From the IMG/VR virus record IMGVR_UViG_3300023184_005116, positions 1-64,000 of that record: a stretch of DNA of 64,000 nt. One strand, 5' to 3'. The position numbers were made by a program, and so were the translations under genes. The notes below the pieces were generated by a model. That model was not told where the DNA came from and did no database searches. It saw nothing but the letters and a program-made list of their open reading frames with translations. The stretch's first letter is position 1. Every line of letters starts with the position of its first letter. This document shows positions 12,884-32,109 of this stretch, in pieces. Source of the DNA: a virus.

Positions 12884-13744
12884 ATGTCATTAATTACTAG
12901 AAATATATTACAAAGAAGCAATGTTGAATCAGAACATTATCTTGGAGTAGTAGTGGATAATAAAGATCCAGAATTTAGAGGAAGAGCTAAGATAAAAGTT
13001 TTTGGTGTTTTTGATGAATTAGCAGATGAGGATTTACCTTGGTCACATCAAAGATTTGAAATGAGCTACGGTTTAGGTGGCGGGTCTGGAAGGATGTCAG
13101 TACCTAAATTGGGATCTGTAGTACACGTTCAGTTTAATAACGGAAATTATTATAGTCCTGAATATAAAGCAGTACAAGAGCTTTCCCCGGATTTAATTGA
13201 TGAAATAAAAGCTAGCTACGATGGAGCTCATTCTGTCATATATGATGGAATAGAAAGACTTAAAATGTATTACACCGTAGAGAAAGGTCTAGTAATCGAT
13301 TTAAAGGACTCTAAAATCATAATTAGGAATGATAATTCAATACTAATAACACACGCCGATGATTCTGCTTCTATAGAATTAAAGGGCGGAAAAATAACAA
13401 AATATGCGGATCAAGAAATAGAGAATACTGCAGTGACTAGAATTAAGCATTCTTCTGAAGAAGTATGGATGGACGGTAAAACAACCAATCTTGGACACTC
13501 CCCTGTTTTCTCTGCAGTTTGTGCAGAACCTTTATGGGACTTTTTGAAAAAACTTGCAACTGCAGTTGATGCTAAAATGCCCGCAACCCCTAGTGTAAAT
13601 TCAACCTTAGCTTCTAGCTTTGAACAATTAGCAACTAGTCAAACAGTAAGGGTAACAAGGGAAAATACACCAGATTTACCTACAGTACCTGCACAGAATA
13701 ATTTCCCTGTTTCTTTACCAGCAACCGGAGCAACCGGAGGATAA
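12884..13744 (+). CDS. Central spike protein, gp5/VgrG-like without lysozyme domain
   Basis: 286 residues. Residues 15-115 are the OB-fold domain of gp5/gpV spikes: YLGVVVDNKDPEFRGR, AKIKVFG, the DLPWSHQR block, then a Gly-rich loop, PKLGSVVHVQF and the Pro-Glu-Tyr end of the barrel. Residues 130-215 contain repeated short strands with alternating polar/hydrophobic residues, fitting the triple-stranded beta-helix needle. T4 gp5 carries a lysozyme domain between these two parts; here they are joined directly. The Pro/Thr-rich C-terminus could dock a tip protein. It would form the trimeric puncturing needle on the hub. Confidence 0.82.
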   Translation: MSLITRNILQRSNVESEHYLGVVVDNKDPEFRGRAKIKVFGVFDELADEDLPWSHQRFEMSYGLGGGSGRMSVPKLGSVVHVQFNNGNYYSPEYKAVQELSPDLIDEIKASYDGAHSVIYDGIERLKMYYTVEKGLVIDLKDSKIIIRNDNSILITHADDSASIELKGGKITKYADQEIENTAVTRIKHSSEEVWMDGKTTNLGHSPVFSAVCAEPLWDFLKKLATAVDAKMPATPSVNSTLASSFEQLATSQTVRVTRENTPDLPTVPAQNNFPVSLPATGATGG

Positions 13745-13745
13745 G

Positions 13746-16700
13746 ATGGCAGAAAATGATAACATATCGTCTAGGATTGATCAATTACTAGGAAAAGATT
13801 TTTCAAGTCTTAGTACCGACGAAATAGTACAAACTATTACTGGACAGAAGGTGGATATTCCTTACGAGGACCTACAATCTGATGAAGGGTTTAATAAAGA
13901 ACTTGAAAAATCAAATAAAGAAGTAGAAGCACTAATTGCTAGTTTAGAGCCACAAAAGCCACCTATACCTATTTCAAAAATAGAAGATTTATCATGTAGA
14001 TATGAGGGGGATGCTTTATATAGTCACATTATTATAGAATCATTAAAGGCTAATAACAAATCCCTTTATAACGAGATGCTAAATTCTGGAGTTATAGATC
14101 AAAAATCTATAGTTGCTTCTGATCTTGGTGTTAAATCTGGGGCAACGTCTTTAAATAAAAAAGGCAGTATTTCTTCTGATGGAATAACAAAATTTCTTCT
14201 TGAAAAAGATCCTGACTTTTTAGAAAAAACAAACGAATCTATATTTGATAATTTAGATCCTTTAACTGTTGGTAAACCGTCTAATTCAGGATCTAAGAAA
14301 AAAAGAGAATTAAATATTCTTGGTTTTAAGATTCCTCTTGAATTTATAATGTCTGGTAAAAAAATACTGCACGTTAAAATTGGAGGTCCTAAGCTTACTG
14401 TAAAAGAAGCAATTGATAAAATAAACAAGATAACAAAAGAGCAAAATAAAAGCTCTAAACCTTGTGATTTTGACGACCCAAATGATGATAGTATAGGAGC
14501 TAACAAGGAAGCAGACCAAGGAACATCCAGAATAGATGATTATGATTCTAATTTTTATCCAGATGGTGACGATCCTATTTTAGACCAGGACTGCGCTCCA
14601 GGTTTACCTGAAGATCCTATAACTGGTGATGTCATAATTACAAAAGAAGCATTTGACGATTCTGCTTCTGATTTTTGTGATCCACCAGCATATGATTTCT
14701 CTGGATTAAATCCAGATGAGGCAGATCCAGAATCAGCCCCTGTAAATATTGATGCAATACAATCTTGTATAGATTCTGCGTTAGACAAGTCAAAAAAGAT
14801 AGACGACAAGAATAAAGAACTGGCTAGGTGGCAAATGATAGAAAGAAACATTGAAGAAATGTTCTATCATTATGAAATAATTTTTGAATATCAAAAAACT
14901 CTTTCTGATACATGGAGAAATAGAAAAAACTTCCCTGTCGAAGGAGATCCTTTACCAGTTCAAGCAGCATATCAAGCTTTAAGTTATAACGACCAAGAAA
15001 GAGAAATAAACATACAGATAAATTCTGCAGAGCAGGATTTTACAAACAATAAGAATTTATTTTTAGACGCTCATCCGATATTAACAAAAGAGATATTTAA
15101 TTTCAGTGTTTTAGATACTGAAAATTATTCTAGTCTAAGTGACGAGGAACTCAAAACCGTTTTTACTATTAACTCAATATCTGGAAAATCTCCTGTTACA
15201 TATGACGATTCTAAAAAATCTTTTCCTATAGATGAAGGCGTTAAAGATTTCCGTAAAAATATAGATGACATAAGAAATATTTTAATAAAAGGGAATTTTA
15301 TAGAATCTCTTAAATCACAGAGGGATGAAATAATTTCTTTAAAGAAATCAAATCTAGATATTCTAAAAGAAAGAACGGGAAAGGATAGTAATATTAATGA
15401 TCTTGAAAAATCCTTTACCGGAAATTATACGGATCCACTAGATCCTTATGGACAGGGTATAGATCAGATGATTAGAAATAATAGGGTTTTTGAAGACATT
15501 TCTTCTCCAATAGGAGAGGAAAGAAAAGGATATCCTTTTATAACTTCTTTACAAAAATTCTCGGCTAGATTTAAAGAAGTTAATTTTGTAAAATTAAAAG
15601 GTGAACTTAGTTTTGAGCTAAGCTTTATGACTGATTACGGGTTACCTCTTCCTTATAAAACTACTAAAAAACCTGGTAAAATATCAATGAACGGAGCTCC
15701 TTCTGAGCCTTTGATAGATGTTACCGAGCCAGATCAGGAAAAAATTAAAATAGGAAATGAATATGCAGGAAATGGAGGATTGTTATACGGAAATCCTACT
15801 GACTATTTCAACAGCTATCAATTCTTAAAAATAAACAATATTAAAACCGGACAAGATGATGTTGCTAAGTTTTATGATTTTGTAGAAAAAGTTATAAAAA
15901 CTAATGATTCTAAACAAAGTATTGTAAATAAAATAAAAGAGGACAGGGGAATATTATACGGAGAGCTTATAGAAAAATCTGCTTCTACGTGGTTATTTTT
16001 TAGTGCAGAAGAAAGAGGGGATAACGATGCTAGAGATCCTTCCAAGTTAAGACCTTCCAGTTTTGATGCAGAAGGAGAGCCAACTCCTGCTTTTAGTGAT
16101 TTTTGGGGTAACTTTAAAGTAAAATGGGATCAAAAATATAACAGCATAAAAACCCAAATAATAAACCCAGCTGTAGAGGATATTAAATCTAAAGCAAGAG
16201 ATGCTGGTACTGGATTAGGAAATACCCTTCCGTTGTCTGATATTGTAGGAGCAAGGATCTTTGAAAACTATTTTGACATTAAAAAGAAAGTAGAGCAACT
16301 TCAGGATGTTATGCTAATTGCAGCAGAGAAAAGAAAAGAAGCGGAGGATTCTTTATCTCCTTCTGCTCTTGAAAAAAGCTTTTCTGATATAAAATGCGCA
16401 GGAGCAGGTAATGGTACAGACCAGAACGATCCTGAAAACTGCCCTCCTGTATGTTGTGGACCTGCTGGAGCGGATTTTAAATCGGGGGGTAATTATTTAC
16501 TTTCGTCTCCGCCAAGTTCTGATTGTCCTACTATTTTTCAAAAATGTTGGTGGAAGCAATTTTGCAAGGATGTTACTAAGGTTGGACTTCTTCCTTATCC
16601 AAATGGATTACCACCTATAGAAAATACTTCTTATTTTCTTTCGGCTGGGCCAAGTGTTAGACTTGGATTAAAATATTGGCCAGTAGGATATTTACCTCCT

Positions 16701-18878
16701 GCTTTTATACCTATTCCTATACCTAATCCAATTGACGGACTTCCTTATATAAGGATACCACTTCCTATGATATGGACGATCATACCGCCTATTGTTATAC
16801 CTCTTCCACTTAATTTAGGGATACTTGTTATATTTATTCCTTTAATTGGCGGTTTTATGCCAACGCCTTTAGTTTATATAAAAGAGTTTGTAACCGGTAG
16901 TTCTTTATTTCTAACTGGAATTAGAGGACCTAGATTTATACCGAGAAAGTCTGATCCTAAAATAAAAGATCCATTAGAAAAAATTAAACAAGCTCTTTCT
17001 TTCGGTATTCCTGATAAATTAATACCTCTTCCTGGTTTTGGTTTAGATAATATAGATTCGCCAACAAGAATCATAACTGATATACAAAGTAACTTTACAA
17101 AGATATTAGATAGTATACCTCCCCCCGGAGATGTACAAGTATTAAGAGATGCACAAATAAAAGAATCAGGTATAAAAGAAAGCATACTTTCTAAGAAGAA
17201 AGAATACGACAAGAAAGCCGCGTTAATTGATGACCCCAAGCCTGATTTTACAAAAGAAAAGGAGCAACTTGATGCTATAATAAACGAAAGAAAAAATGCC
17301 CTAAAGGGTGTAATAAAAGATTATTTAGATAAAGGTATACCTAATCCTAAGTCGATTTATTTCCCAAAGGATAAAGACAAATTAAAAATAGATATTCCCG
17401 GTATTGTAAAATCCCTTAGAATACTAAAAGAAATGAAAGCAAGTTTTGTCCCTGTTAAATGTGGGGGCGATATTAATTTCAAAGACGAAATAAGAGAAGT
17501 TTTAAAGCTTATTAAAATACCAACACCTCCTAAATATATTTTAGAAAATACAGACGTATCAAATTCAAACAAGATTTTTCTTAAGATTGATAAGGATCCA
17601 AGAACTATGCTTGATGACGAATTTAAAAATCTGGTAAGAGAAATAAGAGCGGTTTCATTAGTTATAACTCACATATTATTAAAGGGAAATAAATTCTCAG
17701 TTACTCGTAAAGTTAGACGTGGTGCTTTTTCTATTATTGATAATTGTGAATATCAAGGGACATTTGCATTTCCTCCTGTTAAGATAACTAATTCTGCACC
17801 AAAGGCTTTAAAGTTTTTAAAAGTGCCTAATCCAATATTACTAGCAATGTATGCTAGAATTATGGAAGGTATGGGTAAGGCAGAATACAGAAGAGAAGAT
17901 TTTGCTAGATACGTTAGATACGACGGAGAGAATCCAATATTGGTAATAAGAGTTAAGGATCTTAAAAAACTTATTGCTAAAAAAATAGGTTTGTCAAGAA
18001 GAGGACCTTTTGATCCAGAAAGACCTTTGGATAGGGAAGAGCCACAAATATCTAAATTCCCGCACCCTGAAAGTCCTTTATGTTGTCTTGAGTCATTAAA
18101 TGGAAGTTTTGGAAATGCAATATCTGCATTTGAAATGCCAACCGTATTTCCTCCAAAACAAGACCAGATTACACAATCTCCTGGTGCTGGCGGAATTATA
18201 CAAATAACAATACCAGGATCTATAATTAAAAGCTTTGTTGTTGATGCTATTGTAAAATCTTTGGATACCGGATTATTGGAAGAAATATTTCCAGAAATTA
18301 ATGATATTAATTCACCGAAGTTTGTAAACCTTCAGCCTGCTGATATACAAAAGATGGTAAGAAATATGATTAGAGATAAGTTTAATCCAAGCTCTCCTGA
18401 TATACCTAATTTTTTAAATATAGCAAAAATACCTGTTTTACCACCGGCTAGACCTACCGATATAATAGAGCAAGCTCTTATTGGTATGGGTGCACCTCCT
18501 CCAGCAAGAATAGTTTATAGTCTTTTCTGGAAGTATTTTAAAGGTGTACCTAAAACGCCCCTATTGGAAAAGATAACTATGCCTGCAATAGAGCTTTCTT
18601 CGACTATTCTTCCTAAGATTCCTTGGCCTTTAACTGTTCTTCTTGGGAGAAACGTTGTAAATTTAATAAACCCCATAGTTATGTCAGACGATCATCCTTC
18701 GTGGAGAAGAATGAGTTTAAAAAATACATACTACGTTGTTTATATAGACGAATTTTTAAGAAGCGCTGCAGACGTTTCTGGACTATTCAAATTCTTTTTG
18801 GGAGCAGCGGATCCAGTTTATCCAATCCCAGAATTGCCCTCAGAATTGCAAAAAGCTTTTAATCTAAAAAAATATTAA
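13746..18878 (+). CDS. Giant baseplate-cluster protein with hydrophobic Pro-rich segment, 1710 aa
   Basis: Starts two bases after the spike gene. The first 900 residues are acidic and mixed, with helical stretches around 340-560 and 600-880. Residues 899-940 hold a Cys cluster (PPVCCGP and KCWWKQFC). Residues about 985-1050 are strikingly hydrophobic and rich in Pro and Ile (PIPIPNP, RIPLPMIW, IIPPIVIPLPL, GILVIFIPLI) and could enter a membrane. A Lys/Glu-rich helical region follows (1110-1200), then an Arg-rich beta/alpha part. I recognise no family. Candidates are the tail tape measure or an injected, membrane-penetrating hub protein; the hydrophobic block fits either. Confidence 0.6.
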   Translation: MAENDNISSRIDQLLGKDFSSLSTDEIVQTITGQKVDIPYEDLQSDEGFNKELEKSNKEVEALIASLEPQKPPIPISKIEDLSCRYEGDALYSHIIIESLKANNKSLYNEMLNSGVIDQKSIVASDLGVKSGATSLNKKGSISSDGITKFLLEKDPDFLEKTNESIFDNLDPLTVGKPSNSGSKKKRELNILGFKIPLEFIMSGKKILHVKIGGPKLTVKEAIDKINKITKEQNKSSKPCDFDDPNDDSIGANKEADQGTSRIDDYDSNFYPDGDDPILDQDCAPGLPEDPITGDVIITKEAFDDSASDFCDPPAYDFSGLNPDEADPESAPVNIDAIQSCIDSALDKSKKIDDKNKELARWQMIERNIEEMFYHYEIIFEYQKTLSDTWRNRKNFPVEGDPLPVQAAYQALSYNDQEREINIQINSAEQDFTNNKNLFLDAHPILTKEIFNFSVLDTENYSSLSDEELKTVFTINSISGKSPVTYDDSKKSFPIDEGVKDFRKNIDDIRNILIKGNFIESLKSQRDEIISLKKSNLDILKERTGKDSNINDLEKSFTGNYTDPLDPYGQGIDQMIRNNRVFEDISSPIGEERKGYPFITSLQKFSARFKEVNFVKLKGELSFELSFMTDYGLPLPYKTTKKPGKISMNGAPSEPLIDVTEPDQEKIKIGNEYAGNGGLLYGNPTDYFNSYQFLKINNIKTGQDDVAKFYDFVEKVIKTNDSKQSIVNKIKEDRGILYGELIEKSASTWLFFSAEERGDNDARDPSKLRPSSFDAEGEPTPAFSDFWGNFKVKWDQKYNSIKTQIINPAVEDIKSKARDAGTGLGNTLPLSDIVGARIFENYFDIKKKVEQLQDVMLIAAEKRKEAEDSLSPSALEKSFSDIKCAGAGNGTDQNDPENCPPVCCGPAGADFKSGGNYLLSSPPSSDCPTIFQKCWWKQFCKDVTKVGLLPYPNGLPPIENTSYFLSAGPSVRLGLKYWPVGYLPPAFIPIPIPNPIDGLPYIRIPLPMIWTIIPPIVIPLPLNLGILVIFIPLIGGFMPTPLVYIKEFVTGSSLFLTGIRGPRFIPRKSDPKIKDPLEKIKQALSFGIPDKLIPLPGFGLDNIDSPTRIITDIQSNFTKILDSIPPPGDVQVLRDAQIKESGIKESILSKKKEYDKKAALIDDPKPDFTKEKEQLDAIINERKNALKGVIKDYLDKGIPNPKSIYFPKDKDKLKIDIPGIVKSLRILKEMKASFVPVKCGGDINFKDEIREVLKLIKIPTPPKYILENTDVSNSNKIFLKIDKDPRTMLDDEFKNLVREIRAVSLVITHILLKGNKFSVTRKVRRGAFSIIDNCEYQGTFAFPPVKITNSAPKALKFLKVPNPILLAMYARIMEGMGKAEYRREDFARYVRYDGENPILVIRVKDLKKLIAKKIGLSRRGPFDPERPLDREEPQISKFPHPESPLCCLESLNGSFGNAISAFEMPTVFPPKQDQITQSPGAGGIIQITIPGSIIKSFVVDAIVKSLDTGLLEEIFPEINDINSPKFVNLQPADIQKMVRNMIRDKFNPSSPDIPNFLNIAKIPVLPPARPTDIIEQALIGMGAPPPARIVYSLFWKYFKGVPKTPLLEKITMPAIELSSTILPKIPWPLTVLLGRNVVNLINPIVMSDDHPSWRRMSLKNTYYVVYIDEFLRSAADVSGLFKFFLGAADPVYPIPELPSELQKAFNLKKY

Positions 18879-18935
18879 AAAGTTGGAAATTTTAATCCAA
18901 TCTCACACTAAAATAGAATACAAACATCAAAGTAA

Positions 18936-20048
18936 ATGAAAACAAAAAATTATACTATCTTTGAGTACGAACCTCAAGAGAGAGAAGAACTAGAAAAAAA
19001 ATACACAAAGTATTTTGATAAAGAAGTTTCTGGCGATTTCCAGGGAAAGGATTTAAAAAATAATTCTTCCGTAAGAGTTAAAATTGTAAAATTTGACAAA
19101 GAAAAAGGAATTGCTTTAGGCGAAACTGCTTTTGGACAATCTATAGTTATTGATACAAACAAAGAGGAAAGAAGTTTAAGAAAACTTGGCTATCCATCTA
19201 TCGATATGGTAGAAGGACAAGTCCTTGAAGTTGTTGTTAATAAAGAACCTTCTGGTGCGTTTAATGGATCTGTATCAGCCGGATATGAAAAAGCTCTTAA
19301 GAAACAACTTCATGATGCTATTAAAACCAACAATACTGCATATATTGTAAAAGTTACTAGCGTATGTAATGGAGGATTTATGGTAGACTTATCAGGAATT
19401 CCGTGTTTCTTACCTGGAAGCTTAGCTGCTGCAAACAGGATTATGAATTTTGCGGATTATGTAGGAAAACAAATAACCGTAATGCTAGAGATGTACGATC
19501 AAAGAAGAGATATCTTTGTAGTATCTTTCAAAAAATATCTTAAAAAGATTATTGATTCTGAGGTACAAAACCTATCTTTTGCTAGTAAGTATGACGGTAT
19601 TGTTACTGGCGCTTCTGGTAGCGGAGTATTTGTTGAGTGGGACAGTATCTTTACTGGTATTATTCCTTTTGACGAATCAAATAAATCTATTACATCTGAA
19701 TTAAAAGCAGGGGATACTGTTACATTCTATGTTACTGATATTAAAAATCCAAACCGTGTAGTTCTTTCCGTAACAGAACCTAATGAAAAATTAAAGAATA
19801 TCCAAGAAATGAAGGATTCTTCTTATGATGTTTTAGGGGAAAATTCTGAATCGAAAATATATAAAGCAGAGATTACCAAAATGAAAACTTTCGGAGCCTT
19901 TGTTAGACTAGAAAACGGCTTAGCAGGATTAATCGAAAAAGAAAAATTGGTAAACTCTATTAAAGAATACGAGGTTGGGCAATTGGTTGATTGCTCGGTC
20001 TTAAGTGTGGATTTATCTACTCTTAAAATACAATTAATGGAAAACTAA
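18936..20048 (+). CDS. Multi-S1-domain RNA-binding protein (ribosomal protein S1-like)
   Basis: 370 residues built mainly of S1 (OB-fold) domains. Three are clear: residues about 134-200 (AYIVKVTSVCNGGFMVDLSG...), 218-281 (KYDGIVTGASGSGVFVEW...) and 308-368 (YKAEITKMKTFGAFVRLENG...). A diverged fourth probably spans 44-120. The arrangement resembles a shortened ribosomal protein S1, which brings mRNA to the 30S subunit. A phage protein of this kind could steer ribosomes to phage mRNAs or bind RNA otherwise. It lies among tail genes but has no structural features. Three of its four domains keep the FGAFV-type strand or a close variant. Confidence 0.85.
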   Translation: MKTKNYTIFEYEPQEREELEKKYTKYFDKEVSGDFQGKDLKNNSSVRVKIVKFDKEKGIALGETAFGQSIVIDTNKEERSLRKLGYPSIDMVEGQVLEVVVNKEPSGAFNGSVSAGYEKALKKQLHDAIKTNNTAYIVKVTSVCNGGFMVDLSGIPCFLPGSLAAANRIMNFADYVGKQITVMLEMYDQRRDIFVVSFKKYLKKIIDSEVQNLSFASKYDGIVTGASGSGVFVEWDSIFTGIIPFDESNKSITSELKAGDTVTFYVTDIKNPNRVVLSVTEPNEKLKNIQEMKDSSYDVLGENSESKIYKAEITKMKTFGAFVRLENGLAGLIEKEKLVNSIKEYEVGQLVDCSVLSVDLSTLKIQLMEN

Positions 20049-20052
20049 TAAA

Positions 20053-21495
20053 TTGGCTAATCCACTTACTAATGATTTCTTTTACTCAGCAAAGATTGGT
20101 TTCGAATTTGAGTTCTACAGCAACTTAAATAGGGATGAAATTGCTGAGAACTTAGGGAAATCTATCGGTAAGAAAATTATCTTATTTAACAAGTATCATT
20201 CCAAATTCGTTCCAACAAAAGACGTATTTAAACTAGAACCAGATTATTCAGGAGGATCCAAGATGGTTGAACTCATCACGGGTCCTCTTCCTTATTTTGA
20301 GTCTATTCCTGTCTTAATTAGGATTCTTAAATGGATAGATTTGAATGGCTATACGGATAAAAGATGTGCTTTTCAATTTGGTGTTAGTATAGACACATCA
20401 ATCTATCCTGAGGTTCCTCCAGTAAGTCAACTTAATATGCTTAAATTTGTATTAGGTTTTGATGAAAATATAGTTTATAAAAGATTTCCTGATAGACAAG
20501 GATCTCTTTATGCTAAATCTATAAAGAGAATTACCCCTTCAAATAAATTTGTAGATCCATCTAATCTTTCTTTTATTGACAAGAACCTTTTTGAAGTTCC
20601 TGTTGAAAAAAACATGGGGATTAATTTTACAAAATTGCAAGACGGGTATTTTGAAGTTAGATATTTAGGAGGAAAAGATTACCAGAAAAAATATTCTTCA
20701 GTAAAAGAAGTAATAGATTATATTATTCTCTATACTTTCCAAACATTACAGTCGAATAATATTTTTACTGATAATGATCTTAAGGTTTTAAAATCCTTCC
20801 TTAATGAAATTTATAAAAGTGCTTCTACCTTTATTGATCCTAATGCTTTTCAGAAGAACTATCCTCACATGAATATAATGGTTGATTTAAGATCTGACCC
20901 ACAGATTCTTAGATCCTTCTTTATTAATATCCGCGAAGTTCTATATGATCTTATTGTTGAAAACGGAATAAAAGACGGATTAGTTAATTATGACAGTACT
21001 CTTGGTAAATTCCAATTAAAGGAAGTTAAAACTAATAGGGCATATCTTTTAAAAGATTATGACATATTAGAATCTGAAATAACTGGTAACCTTTTAAACT
21101 GCAGAATATTTTCCAGTAAGCTGAGTGATTGTTCACTTGAAGACTGCGATTTAATCACCGTTAACGAGGTTTATAGATCAAAGATAATGTATTCAGATAT
21201 AATGTTCAGTAACGCTGTACACGACAGTTATATTGATAATAAGGACAAGGAAATAAACTGCGAGGTTTATGGAGGTGTAATAAGATCTGGATATATTGGA
21301 AATCTTGCTACTATATCTCCGGATACAGAAGTTGTTAAAGATCCATCTGATGATAAAAAAATGAAGGGATCTTCTAAAAAAGCTTTATTTCCCAACAGGA
21401 ATGATGGTGAGACACTTTCGAAACCTGTAAGATTTAAAGATAACAATTCAAAGCCTTCAGGCATACCTGGAGTAAGATTCGATCAAAATAACTAA
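20053..21495 (+). CDS. Amidoligase-like protein (COOH-NH2 ligase) with beta-helix-like C-terminus
   Basis: 480 residues from a TTG start at 20053. Residues 14-21 read KIGFEFEF, like the metal/ATP-binding GxExE strand that opens Amidoligase_2 proteins. It is followed by a VELITGPLPYFES block and a TDKRCAFQFGVSID block, which occupy the places of the family's T-x-P-L and Gly-x-His motifs. Such enzymes belong to the glutamine-synthetase/GCS2 fold and form amide bonds. Residues 335-425 contain short repeated strands (for example NLLNCRIFSSKLSDCSLEDCDL) like a pentapeptide or right-handed beta-helix, then a disordered tail. The usual second His looks replaced by Gln/Phe, so activity is uncertain. 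Confidence 0.6.
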   Translation: MANPLTNDFFYSAKIGFEFEFYSNLNRDEIAENLGKSIGKKIILFNKYHSKFVPTKDVFKLEPDYSGGSKMVELITGPLPYFESIPVLIRILKWIDLNGYTDKRCAFQFGVSIDTSIYPEVPPVSQLNMLKFVLGFDENIVYKRFPDRQGSLYAKSIKRITPSNKFVDPSNLSFIDKNLFEVPVEKNMGINFTKLQDGYFEVRYLGGKDYQKKYSSVKEVIDYIILYTFQTLQSNNIFTDNDLKVLKSFLNEIYKSASTFIDPNAFQKNYPHMNIMVDLRSDPQILRSFFINIREVLYDLIVENGIKDGLVNYDSTLGKFQLKEVKTNRAYLLKDYDILESEITGNLLNCRIFSSKLSDCSLEDCDLITVNEVYRSKIMYSDIMFSNAVHDSYIDNKDKEINCEVYGGVIRSGYIGNLATISPDTEVVKDPSDDKKMKGSSKKALFPNRNDGETLSKPVRFKDNNSKPSGIPGVRFDQNN

Positions 21496-21497
21496 TT

Positions 21498-22277
21498 ATG
21501 ACAGAAGCAGATTTAATCCAGGAAGTAAAAGACGAGATTTCACATTCTTGTTCATTACCTTATAACCTTAATGATCAAGAGATTAAAAGGATTATTAAAA
21601 GAGCTAGAGCTTATTTCTATGACAATTACCAATATGCAGTAGAAGATAGAATATTTGTTTTAGGGAGAGAATTATTTATAACTCCATCTTTTAGAGCTAC
21701 AAGACAAATTCAATTACCACAGTGTGTTGTTTCTGTATACGATGTAAGACAAGTAAACGGAGCGGGATTAATTGGAACACCTGATAAAGATTTTGGTGAT
21801 TCTAAATTATTAGGATCAGAGCTTATGCTTTCTCCTTTTGTTGGTGATAACTTGGTTTACAGAACTGTTTTATATTCTTTCTTTGATCTTGCTAAAGCAT
21901 ATTTATTAGAAAGCTATGCTTTTAATTACAATAAAAATACAAAGAAACTTACTATAAATGGGCGTGACCCAGCAAGATCTAATGGTACTGTAAGTGGTAC
22001 AGACAATAATATTCAAGGCGGTACAGATGTAGGTGTAAGAGCTTATATTGCAATACCGGAAGAAAGCCTTTATGATGATGAGCTTTTTGTAAGGTTTGTA
22101 CTTGCTGAAGCAAAAATTAATATTGGTAGATTACTTGGGACATTTGAATATAATCTTCCTGGTGGTGTAAGAGTTAACTATAACAACATCCAATCTTTAG
22201 GAACAACGGAGAAACAAGAGATTATACAAATGATCAAAGACGAAAACACTCCTTCATACTTCCTACAGTGGAACTAA
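21498..22277 (+). CDS. Virion structural protein, 259 aa (neck or baseplate)
   Basis: Two bases after the amidoligase-like gene. The N-terminal 40 residues are helical and basic (EIKRIIKRARAYFYDNY). A beta-rich middle follows with several Gly/Asn loops, and the C-terminal helix includes FVLAEAKINIGRLLGTFEYNLPGG. The final residues SYFLQWN suggest an exposed hydrophobic tail for docking. No enzyme motif is present. Position just before gp25 and gp6 makes a tail or connector role likely, but I cannot name the T4 equivalent. Confidence 0.55.
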   Translation: MTEADLIQEVKDEISHSCSLPYNLNDQEIKRIIKRARAYFYDNYQYAVEDRIFVLGRELFITPSFRATRQIQLPQCVVSVYDVRQVNGAGLIGTPDKDFGDSKLLGSELMLSPFVGDNLVYRTVLYSFFDLAKAYLLESYAFNYNKNTKKLTINGRDPARSNGTVSGTDNNIQGGTDVGVRAYIAIPEESLYDDELFVRFVLAEAKINIGRLLGTFEYNLPGGVRVNYNNIQSLGTTEKQEIIQMIKDENTPSYFLQWN

Positions 22278-22339: not shown

Positions 22340-22711
22340 ATGGCAAGATTTTCCGAAATATATCCTAGAAATCCCGATGACCCAAATTACAAGGTTGGGT
22401 TATTACATACAGATGATGAGGTAGAAATCCTTATTGGTATGATAAAAAATTGTATGATGACTAGACCGGGAGAGGTTTTAGGAGATCCTTACTTTGGTAT
22501 AGATCTAGAAGGACTTCTTTTTGATTTTGGTGTGGACCAAAATACACTCGAAAGGGCTATAAGATTACACTTACTAACGTATGTTCCTCTTTCTAATTCA
22601 AGATATGATGTTGATTTTAAAATAGGGTTTTTAAAAGGACAAACAAGGGATGCTTGCATTATTGATTTCGCCATAAAGGGAAGTCCTATATTAGGTATTA
22701 AAATTTTATAA
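22340..22711 (+). CDS. 25: Baseplate wedge protein gp25-like
   Basis: 123 residues, close to the 132 of T4 gp25. The GPW/gp25 signature is clear: TRPGEVLGDPYFGIDLEGLLFD (residues about 41-62) followed by a helix (LERAIRLHLLTYVP) and two strands. In T4, gp25 sits at the wedge core beside gp6 and helps start sheath assembly. It is followed three bases later by the gp6-like gene, the same pairing as in many contractile tails. It has its own candidate promoter in the gap upstream. Confidence 0.88.
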   Translation: MARFSEIYPRNPDDPNYKVGLLHTDDEVEILIGMIKNCMMTRPGEVLGDPYFGIDLEGLLFDFGVDQNTLERAIRLHLLTYVPLSNSRYDVDFKIGFLKGQTRDACIIDFAIKGSPILGIKIL

Positions 22712-22714
22712 AAA

Positions 22715-24412
22715 ATGGATTTATTACAAAAGAACAAAGCCAAAATATCAGATCTTATAAGTCAAACATTTGATCTTATACAGGCTAGATATTCTATGTC
22801 TAGCCAATTATTTACTGTTGCCTCAGTTTGGGGACAAATTATATTTGTTCTGGATAACCTATCTCAATTTATTCTATACTTTATAGAGGATTCAATAACA
22901 GAGCTTAATATAAATCAGGCAACAAGAGAATCTTCCATTTATGGGCTTGCAACATTAGCTGGACACAATCCAACTAGAGCAATATCTGCAAAAGGTGAAG
23001 CTGTTATTGTATGGAACGGTAAAGGTTACGAAGATATTGGAGGTGGAGCTATATTAGTACCAAACAATGCAGAGATTAAGTGTGTCAATAACGGTAAAGT
23101 ATATTTAATAAAATTAAACCAAGATTATTTAAGATTAAATCTCGATGCTTCTTCAAAAATAATAGCACCTATAATCGAAGGCACATTAAAAAGTAACCAA
23201 TACACAGGAGACGGATCTAAGCTACAAAGCTTTAATATCTCAGCAAGAGGTACTTCGAGTATAGAGAATTTTGAAGTTACAGTTAAGGTAAACGGAGAAG
23301 AGTGGAAAAGATATGATTCTCTTTATGATATTCCAAGAAATTCTAAAGGATATCTTCTTAAAAGTTCTCTTATTTCTGGTATTGATGTTTTCTTTGGTAC
23401 TGTTGATTTTGGGTATCCTCCCCCATCTGGATCTATAATAGAAATTACATATTTAGAATCTGCGGGAGCTTTTGGTAATATTACAGTTGAGGATTCATCT
23501 CAGGTAATTCTAAAATTTGATTCTGATGGTACAGATCTATTTGGTAGAAACGTAACACTACAAGATTATATACAAATCTCTTGTTCAATAGCTCCTCAAA
23601 TGGGTGCAAACCAAGAGCCAATTGACTTAACAAGATTAATAGCACCAAAAACATCTAGAAGTTTTGTTCTTGCTAATCCAACTAATTACATTACATTTTT
23701 TGAAAAATTTGGGCAGTTTTCGATAATTGAAGCATTTACAACTTTTAATGACGAATACTTAGATGATGATAATATTATCTATTTAATCTTGGTACCAGAT
23801 ATCAGTCTTACGTTAAAAAGCAACGAATCTTATTTTGATGTTCCTGTCTCTAGGTTTAAATTAACCAAACCACAGATTGATAGAATTTATCAATTACTTG
23901 ATGAAAGCGGACAAAAAATTGTAACAACTGTTGTTAAAGTTTTAGATCCAACCATAATAAAATATGTTGTAAATATTGCAATTACTATTTTTGAAGGAAA
24001 TGATCCAGATACAATAAAAACACAAATAGTAAATATACTAAGTGACTATTTCTTAAATATTAGAAGAAGAGATAAAATACCAAGATCTGATCTTATTGCA
24101 TCTATAGAAGGTGTAAGCGGTATAGACTCCGTTTCCTTATATTTTGTGGGACAAGAAAACGAAGCTGCTAAAGCTCAAAATTCAAATTCTCCTGAAATAG
24201 GATTCGATGAATTTGGAGATATACTAATAGGAAAAGACGAGATAGTAATTATATCAGGAGGTTGGGAAGATCGAAATGGTATTTATTACGATTATGGCGC
24301 TAGTATGCAAACATTATCTTCAGTAAATATAGACATAAGAGCTATAGTACCGGTAACTTATAATACCAAGGTAAATAACATACTTAAGTCATCAATAAAA
24401 TCAGGAAATTAA
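22715..24412 (+). CDS. 6: Baseplate wedge protein gp6/J-like
   Basis: 565 residues. The N-terminal 100 residues match the baseplate J/gp6 family: a helix with the SVWGQIIFVLDNL block, then FIEDSITELNINQATRESSIYGLATLAGHNPTR and a SAKGEA strand. In T4, gp6 dimers form the inner ring of the baseplate and drive its opening. The C-terminal part, with a RRRDKIPRSDLIASIEGVSGIDSVSLYF stretch, is also typical of J-like proteins. T4 gp6 is 660 residues, so the length is similar. It sits directly after gp25, with which it forms the wedge core. Confidence 0.87.
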   Translation: MDLLQKNKAKISDLISQTFDLIQARYSMSSQLFTVASVWGQIIFVLDNLSQFILYFIEDSITELNINQATRESSIYGLATLAGHNPTRAISAKGEAVIVWNGKGYEDIGGGAILVPNNAEIKCVNNGKVYLIKLNQDYLRLNLDASSKIIAPIIEGTLKSNQYTGDGSKLQSFNISARGTSSIENFEVTVKVNGEEWKRYDSLYDIPRNSKGYLLKSSLISGIDVFFGTVDFGYPPPSGSIIEITYLESAGAFGNITVEDSSQVILKFDSDGTDLFGRNVTLQDYIQISCSIAPQMGANQEPIDLTRLIAPKTSRSFVLANPTNYITFFEKFGQFSIIEAFTTFNDEYLDDDNIIYLILVPDISLTLKSNESYFDVPVSRFKLTKPQIDRIYQLLDESGQKIVTTVVKVLDPTIIKYVVNIAITIFEGNDPDTIKTQIVNILSDYFLNIRRRDKIPRSDLIASIEGVSGIDSVSLYFVGQENEAAKAQNSNSPEIGFDEFGDILIGKDEIVIISGGWEDRNGIYYDYGASMQTLSSVNIDIRAIVPVTYNTKVNNILKSSIKSGN

Positions 24413-31437: not shown

Positions 31438-32109
31438 TTAAATAGTATATTCTCGATAGACATCAAGAATAGCAGGAACAATAGGATGTCTGTGGTTTTT
31501 CTTTAAAGTGATAACTTTAACTCCCTCAACTCTTGCTGAAAGCGTGTTCATGAAATCTAAACCTGATTCTTTCTTGTTTTTTAGATCTATCTGAGATGTG
31601 TCTCCACATATCATCATTTTAGATCCAATACCAAGCCTTCCTAGAACCATTTCCATTTGAGTCATTGTTACGTTTTGGGCTTCGTCAACAATTACACATG
31701 AATTTACTAGAGTTCTACCCCTCATAAAAGGAAAAGGTAAAATTTCAATAATACCGTCACTTAGCAATTTTTCAATTTTGGTTTTTTCATAAACCATTTC
31801 TAAGTTTGCATAAATAGGCGCTAGCCAAGGATCCATTTTCTCTTTTAGATCCCCAGGAAGAAATCCTATATCTTCTTTTGCAACGGTGGGTCTAGTAATA
31901 ACTAGTTTTTCAATTTCCCTATTAAATAACATATCTAAAGCGATCTGAACTGCTAGTAGGGTTTTACCTGAACCAGCTGCTCCTTTAAGAACACTAACAG
32001 GGTTTGCTAGTATAATAGCTTTAGCCTCTTTTTGTTCTTCGTTTAGATTAATCTTAAATTTAATTTGGGTTTTAGGTTTTCTTTTTTGTGTCCATTTGCT
32101 TTCTGTCAT
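31438..32109 (-). CDS. phoH: PhoH-like ATPase
   Basis: 223 residues, the only minus-strand gene in the window. A PhoH-type P-loop NTPase: Walker A is GAAGSGKT (residues 43-50), the RPTVAKEDIGFLPGDLKEK stretch typical of PhoH lies near 73-91, Walker B is VIVDEAQN with Asp142/Glu143, and the ICGDTSQIDL sensor motif follows. PhoH homologues are common in large phages; their role is unsettled, with RNA or phosphate-stress links proposed. Its stop abuts the stop of the opposing 2257-residue gene with no bases between. It is divergently arranged with the fibre gene at 32222 across a 112-base gap. Confidence 0.92.
   Translation of the reverse strand: MTESKWTQKRKPKTQIKFKINLNEEQKEAKAIILANPVSVLKGAAGSGKTLLAVQIALDMLFNREIEKLVITRPTVAKEDIGFLPGDLKEKMDPWLAPIYANLEMVYEKTKIEKLLSDGIIEILPFPFMRGRTLVNSCVIVDEAQNVTMTQMEMVLGRLGIGSKMMICGDTSQIDLKNKKESGLDFMNTLSARVEGVKVITLKKNHRHPIVPAILDVYREYTI

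Follow-up and report, generated by a model that had tools for sequence, protein, structure and literature searches.

The gene at positions 18936-20048 of the window (the whole stretch of viral DNA that was analyzed, 64,000 nucleotides) encodes a shortened homologue of ribosomal protein bS1, as evident from its sequence, its profile matches, and its fold. Because the homology was found at all three levels, a role resembling that of an initiation factor is our best guess: this four-domain bS1 derivative of the phage on balance probably acts at the bS1 site of the host and favors phage mRNAs. The initial annotation had called the product an S1-like translation factor. The bS1 homology supports this in part, whereas the Shine-Dalgarno (SD)-poor leaders did not hold up as support for it. 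The gene and the parts of its product are as follows.

18906-18935, + strand: leader of the S1 gene, A-rich and without a visible SD motif
18936-20048, + strand: S1 protein gene, 370 amino acids with four OB (S1) domains, colinear with OB1-OB4 of bS1
18954-19013, + strand: N-terminal segment, residues 7-26, with F9-E-Y, a helix (13-26), and a conserved Tyr23; proposed to correspond to the N-terminal part by which bS1 is anchored to the ribosome
19068-19271, + strand: OB1, residues 45-112, diverged, with Gly where E. coli bS1 has Lys43
19338-19526, + strand: OB2, residues 135-197, the most conserved domain of the phage family
19407-19436, + strand: OB2 motif FLPGSLAAAN, residues 158-167; in bacterial bS1, other residues come after FLPGS
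19587-19769, + strand: OB3, residues 218-278; Phe208 and Arg254 of bS1 kept, Tyr205 replaced by Ser and His219 by Pro
19857-20042, + strand: OB4, residues 308-369, with Phe at both aromatic positions and Glu in place of His

The ORF begins with ATG, a start backed by the N-terminus MK-x-K-N-[YF], which is conserved across close relatives. Pfam S1 (PF00575) matched with an E value of 1.4e-19 in three significant stretches, and NCBIfam bS1 models spanned the full length (NF000907, residues 3-367, E 2e-24; rpsA, E 1.3e-24). The equivalog cut-offs for 30S ribosomal protein S1 were missed: 86.7 bits were reached versus 577 for TIGR00717, and all rpsA models were far below. A phmmer search of the PDB returned E. 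coli bS1 as the best match (E 5e-17). The family profile aligned with residues 7-369 of the bS1 chain 9zcd_A, which we term Bacteroidota-type because it is 70-74% identical to Bacteroidales bS1. AlphaFold2, run on a 33-sequence alignment, modeled the N-terminal helix and the four OB folds at the residues given above, with a mean pLDDT of 83.5 and a pTM of 0.60. The best fold match in the PDB was 9gut_B, the bS1 of a 30S mRNA-delivery complex (E 4e-22); flexible linkage between the domains kept the TM-scores low (0.3-0.5). The protein was thus found to contain tandem S1/OB domains in bS1 order, with bS1 as its best match. Three clear and one diverged S1 domain had been read from the sequence beforehand; the three Pfam stretches and the four modeled folds agree with that count, OB1 being the diverged one. 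Public databases name similar proteins "30S ribosomal protein S1." In PHROGs, the protein could not be assigned clearly to any family (best E 0.032), and a search for structured RNA or tRNA within the window found none.

A tblastn search picked up relatives in Lak megaphages as well as in records of uncultured huge phages. Family members are encoded in Mahaphage records of 634,780, 636,363, 642,428, and 735,411 bases; the Mahaphage clade is predicted to replicate in Bacteroidetes (PMC7162821). The S1 proteins of these 634-735 kb phages were matched with E values of 4e-23 to 8e-14 and share 25-28% identity with the window protein, as a separate lineage. IMG/VR held 42 close loci, and the family profile gave at least 573 pattern-confirmed matches in viral contigs. 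In a tree of 43 rows, 32 phage rows were split from 11 bS1-side rows with a support of 100/100; the bS1 side is a small sample of ten sequences that stem from bacteria or from bacterial DNA contaminating phage records plus one from a Microcystis phage, the bacterial bS1 sequences having been drawn from plasmid-collection records. A phylogeny with Bacteroidota S1 had been called for beforehand, and it placed the phage proteins in a clade of their own, not inside bacterial bS1. Judged from these alignments, they make up a single, deeply diverged, long-conserved phage S1 family with an overall identity to bS1 of about 20%. A recent transfer from a Bacteroidota host was not supported: identity to Bacteroidota bS1 was 0.19-0.20, no higher than to bS1 of other phyla, and the phage clade is separate. 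A Lak-like S1 gene (L057) was the one match in a bacterial genome; its 3.4-kb contig is filed under a Clostridium MAG and is probably a misbinned phage fragment.

The N-terminal segment carries a motif common to several phage clades and Bacteroidota bS1. F-[DNES]-W (F-[DN]-W) was present in 12/12 phage sequences examined (2 Lak and 10 jumbo-clade) and in 4/4 Bacteroidales bS1 versus 0/7 other bS1-side sequences, with a background of 1/587 phage N-termini. FNW was visible at the N-terminus of 9zcd_A in the profile alignment. The common motif could have been inherited, or it could have arisen by convergence toward the same binding site. What the window's clade shows in its place is F-[DE]-Y alone (FEY in the window protein). 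It is possible that F-[DE]-Y is a relic of F-[DN]-W, but this reading is weak, as F-[DNES]-[WY] turned up in 18/587 background N-termini.

In E. coli, Phe5 and Phe9 of bS1 stack on uS2 and thereby anchor the bS1 N-terminus (PMC10123108). These positions are Leu/Tyr in the window protein and mostly Leu/Tyr in the phages and in four Bacteroidales bS1, in a register set by one MAFFT alignment; 9zcd_A seems to differ. In that alignment, the anchor lines up with hydrophobic-x3-Tyr of the phage N-terminal helix, and likewise in the four Bacteroidales bS1. bS1 also contacts uS2 through Lys43, which is Gly in the window's and the jumbo clades and Ser in Lak, and which is kept as Lys in the LR huge phages and LR756500. 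In two sequences (L083 and L085) the S1 N-terminal helix segment is doubled in tandem, with GYEPEVRELLNEKYTDYFEENF followed by QYKPDEFDTLNNLYEDYYEKNF.

As estimated from mean identities, the peak of constraint has moved to OB2 in phages versus OB3/OB4 in bacteria. Values between phages were 0.51 for OB2, 0.45 for OB3, and 0.34 for OB4, and those between bacteria were 0.53 for OB3, 0.46 for OB4, and 0.38 for OB2. The OB2 motif FLPGSLAAAN did not vary over 33 aligned relatives. Tyr205/Phe208/His219 of OB3 and Tyr290/Phe293/His305 of OB4 in E. coli bS1, which we take to be RNA-binding positions of S1 domains, read S/F/P and F/F/E in the window protein, F/F/H and N/L/P in the jumbo clade, and mostly F/F/H and F/L/H in the LR phages. 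OB3 of Lak has F/F/H, and OB4 is absent there. The weakest case is LR756504 (L049), with S/F/H in OB3 and F/L/S in OB4. Thus, the canonical aromatic pair, or close substitutes, is retained in at least one of OB3 and OB4 in every tabulated clade.

The leaders of the phage had been described as lacking SD sites, and they were confirmed to be SD-poor. At a duplex threshold of -4.5 kcal/mol, SD was called in 11% of the 81 leaders of the 102,757-base record to which the window belongs versus 6-9% of shuffled leaders; the T4 control gave 60% versus 15-16%. As an argument for a role of S1, the SD-poor setting failed, the same leaders being found in phages whose records gave no match in an S1 search. 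Seven such S1-less Bacteroidota phages and ten S1-phage data sets did not differ in A-excess (0.113 versus 0.130, p = 0.54) or SD excess (0.014 versus 0.019, p = 0.35), in a small sample that ignores kinship and in which starts may be off because ORFs were called with the first ATG. SD use in the S1-less phages was 0-7%, except for 26% in crAss001. SD-poor, A-rich leaders were therefore rejected as a hallmark of S1 phages, and a preference for A-rich over other leaders is not supported so far. Because the leaders are equal, the absence of SD marks the host phylum and not the S1 gene. Bacteroidota are a phylum without SD use and with A/T-rich positions near -13 (PMC3155529), SD use being absent because bS21, bS18, and bS6 sequester the anti-SD (PMC9976891). 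All S1 phages with host predictions in the literature consulted here infect Bacteroidota, so that the published S1/SD correlation has the same confounder. The comparison is useful as a negative control, showing that the link between phage S1 and SD absence is confounded by host phylum among the phages compared.

Another initiation protein accompanies S1 in some of these phages. bS21 is encoded by 6/33 S1 records tested, including 4/4 genomes above 630 kb. The bS21-bearing records are LR745206, LR756504, LR756502, LR756501, G006, and G024; the bS21 genes of the five besides G006 are L125-L129. In G006 (245 kb), bS21 lies at L107 1486-1680; its residue 54 is Tyr, which in Bacteroidetes is described as stacking on the anti-SD (PMC9723584). 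The window's own record, which is probably incomplete at 102,757 bases, was searched for bS21 and gave none. Chen et al. found nine completed bS21 phage genomes to be without other ribosomal protein genes (PMC9723584), and the co-occurrence of S1 and bS21 therefore merits following. An initiation role gains plausibility from an in vitro result: with Flavobacterium johnsoniae bS1 added, initiation on an SD-less mRNA rose twofold (PMC9976891).

The window belongs to a T4-like phage, and its S1 gene lies amid baseplate and neck genes, in agreement with the earlier statement that the gene sits among tail genes. Its neighbors are listed below.

12884-13744, + strand: baseplate hub/OB (gp5/gpV-like) protein, upstream neighbor
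13746-18878, + strand: 1710-amino acid protein between the baseplate hub and S1, without a Pfam or PHROGs match
20053-21495, + strand: amidoligase-like protein of 480 amino acids (Amidoligase_2, E 0.0022, weak and below the cut-off)
21498-22277, + strand: head-tail adaptor (Ad2-like neck protein), downstream neighbor
22340-22711, + strand: gp25-like baseplate wedge protein, downstream neighbor
22715-24412, + strand: gp6/Baseplate_J-like baseplate wedge protein, downstream neighbor

Loci whose S1 identity is as low as 39% still show this gene order around S1; the 1710-amino acid gene is unrecognizable in the more distant clades. The amidoligase-like gene adjoins S1 in every locus of the lineage covering that stretch and also in LR756500 (462 kb; 37% identity), where the window gene order is kept with other genes interspersed. 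The position of S1 in the genome varies among Mahaphages. In LR745206 and LR756502 it comes after homologues of window genes 35341 and 38831, in LR756504 after homologues of 48269 and 50618 (tail tube), and in LR756501 after a 50618 homologue. Downstream of S1 in Lak-C1, genes for tRNA-His guanylyltransferase, DnaB helicase, and RNA ligase are recognizable; the genes immediately upstream gave no match. A location among tail genes is conserved within the window's lineage and extends to LR756500, but not to Lak. Elsewhere in the window, two adjoining nucleotide-sugar epimerase-like genes occupy positions 187-2128, the first having a 58% identical counterpart in the 735-kb phage LR756501, and a PhoH-like gene at 31438-32109 is the only large non-overlapping gene on the reverse strand.

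If the protein acts in initiation, its N-terminal segment and OB1 would attach it to the host 30S subunit, possibly in a reversible manner, at the place near uS2 where bS1 binds. OB2 would sit beside the mRNA exit, OB3/OB4 would grip unstructured 5' leaders, and ribosomes carrying the phage protein would prefer phage mRNAs during infection. Docking on the ribosome is likely; the protein would replace or compete with host bS1, and phage mRNAs, late ones in particular, would benefit. The match to bS1 in profile, sequence, and fold, the single phage clade, the N-terminal motif and helix, the constancy of the neighboring genes, the place of the Lak gene beside genes of RNA/DNA metabolism, and the bS21 genes of some S1 records speak for this role. 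Against it count the loss of Lys43 and of OB3 Tyr205 and His219 in the window's clade, the reduction of FDW to FEY, the low identity to bS1, leaders equal to those of S1-less phages, and a tail-gene setting that fits a virion role too. A more elaborate version, which we consider doubtful, has a phage-specific initiation factor whose Bacteroidota-type N-terminus docks at the bS1 site and whose rebuilt OB2 reprograms mRNA choice, in some phages together with phage bS21, yielding phage-made ribosomes with an altered mRNA-exit platform.

S1 domains are frequent in non-ribosomal RNA-binding proteins, a warning given by Mizuno et al. and Al-Shayeb et al. (PMC7162821). The phage S1 chain might coat or unfold phage transcripts off the ribosome, as an RNA chaperone or in RNase protection or targeting, without stable 30S binding. 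Loss of the Lys43 contact in the window's clade and Lak would suit such a protein, as would aromatics kept in OB4 (window) or OB3 (Lak and jumbo clade), and host S1 has extraribosomal roles in phage infection, for example with T4 RegB (PMC13157829). A pure RNA chaperone would have no need, however, for the N-terminal helix and the Bacteroidota-like FDW kept in several clades, and OB2, the domain most conserved here, is the one that in bS1 is located next to the mRNA exit of the ribosome. We regard action solely off the ribosome as unlikely.

It is less probable still that the shortened S1 merely fills the bS1 site, so that initiation on host mRNAs drops while phage mRNAs gain nothing. Such a competitor could make do with just four of the six domains, an anchor-like segment, and an OB3 or OB4 that is degenerate depending on the clade. 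But a four-domain bS1 is normal in some bacteria, at least one of OB3/OB4 keeps its aromatics or close substitutes in every tabulated clade, and the structural-gene block suggests late expression, when high phage translation is needed. Equally improbable is a virion or tail-assembly protein that uses its OB folds for protein-protein contacts, although two features point that way: S1 invariably lies between the baseplate hub and the neck genes in LR756500 and the window's lineage, and it has structural-gene homologues nearby in the LR Mahaphages. The Lak setting beside tRNA-His guanylyltransferase, DnaB, and RNA ligase genes counts against a virion part, as does the shifting location among Mahaphages. 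In addition, it is bS1, not the tail OB proteins, that the protein resembles in fold and sequence, and the RNA-contact positions of bS1 are partly retained.

If docking on Bacteroidota ribosomes proves true, the phage S1 would be a natural tool for studying start-codon choice in a phylum without SD pairing, and a case of a virus exchanging a ribosomal protein. The initial annotation was right that phage ribosomal-protein homologues had been reported: huge-phage S1 proteins were published in 2020 by Al-Shayeb et al., who described "possible rpS1" S1-domain proteins and proposed an initiation role in SD-poor phages (PMC7162821). Huge-phage S1 chains, the SD-poor link, and an initiation role "on or off the ribosome" are thus already known. 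A search of the open-access literature found no mention of the F-[DN]-W motif, the OB2 constraint shift, or the host confounder. New points are the F-[DN]-W motif, the constraint peak in OB2, the aromatics in OB3 or OB4 depending on the clade, the Lak setting, and bS21 in 4/4 genomes above 630 kb.

The huge-phage proteins and the window protein share a homologous S1 chain and fall into one clade of the tree. SD is rarely used by the phage in both cases, but equally so by S1-less Bacteroidota phages, and the SD correlation was found here to be non-specific to S1. The bS1 of Microcystis phage PhiMa05/MaAM05 (PMC13157829) is also phage-encoded, with 359 amino acids, but it adjoins bL21 and bL27 genes and groups with bacterial bS1 on a long branch, and therefore appears to have been acquired separately. 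Freshwater Bacteroidetes phages (PMC9723584) likewise encode a protein of the initiation site, bS21, whose gene is found within or close to the late structural genes in Bacteroidota jumbo phages, but bS21 is a protein other than S1. With Bacteroidota bS1 (for example L111-L113 and 9zcd_A), the phage family shares the colinear N-terminal segment through OB4 and, in several clades, F-[DN]-W; it differs in lacking OB5-OB6, in its identity of only about 20%, in its OB2 motif, and in a constraint peak in OB2 instead of OB3/OB4.
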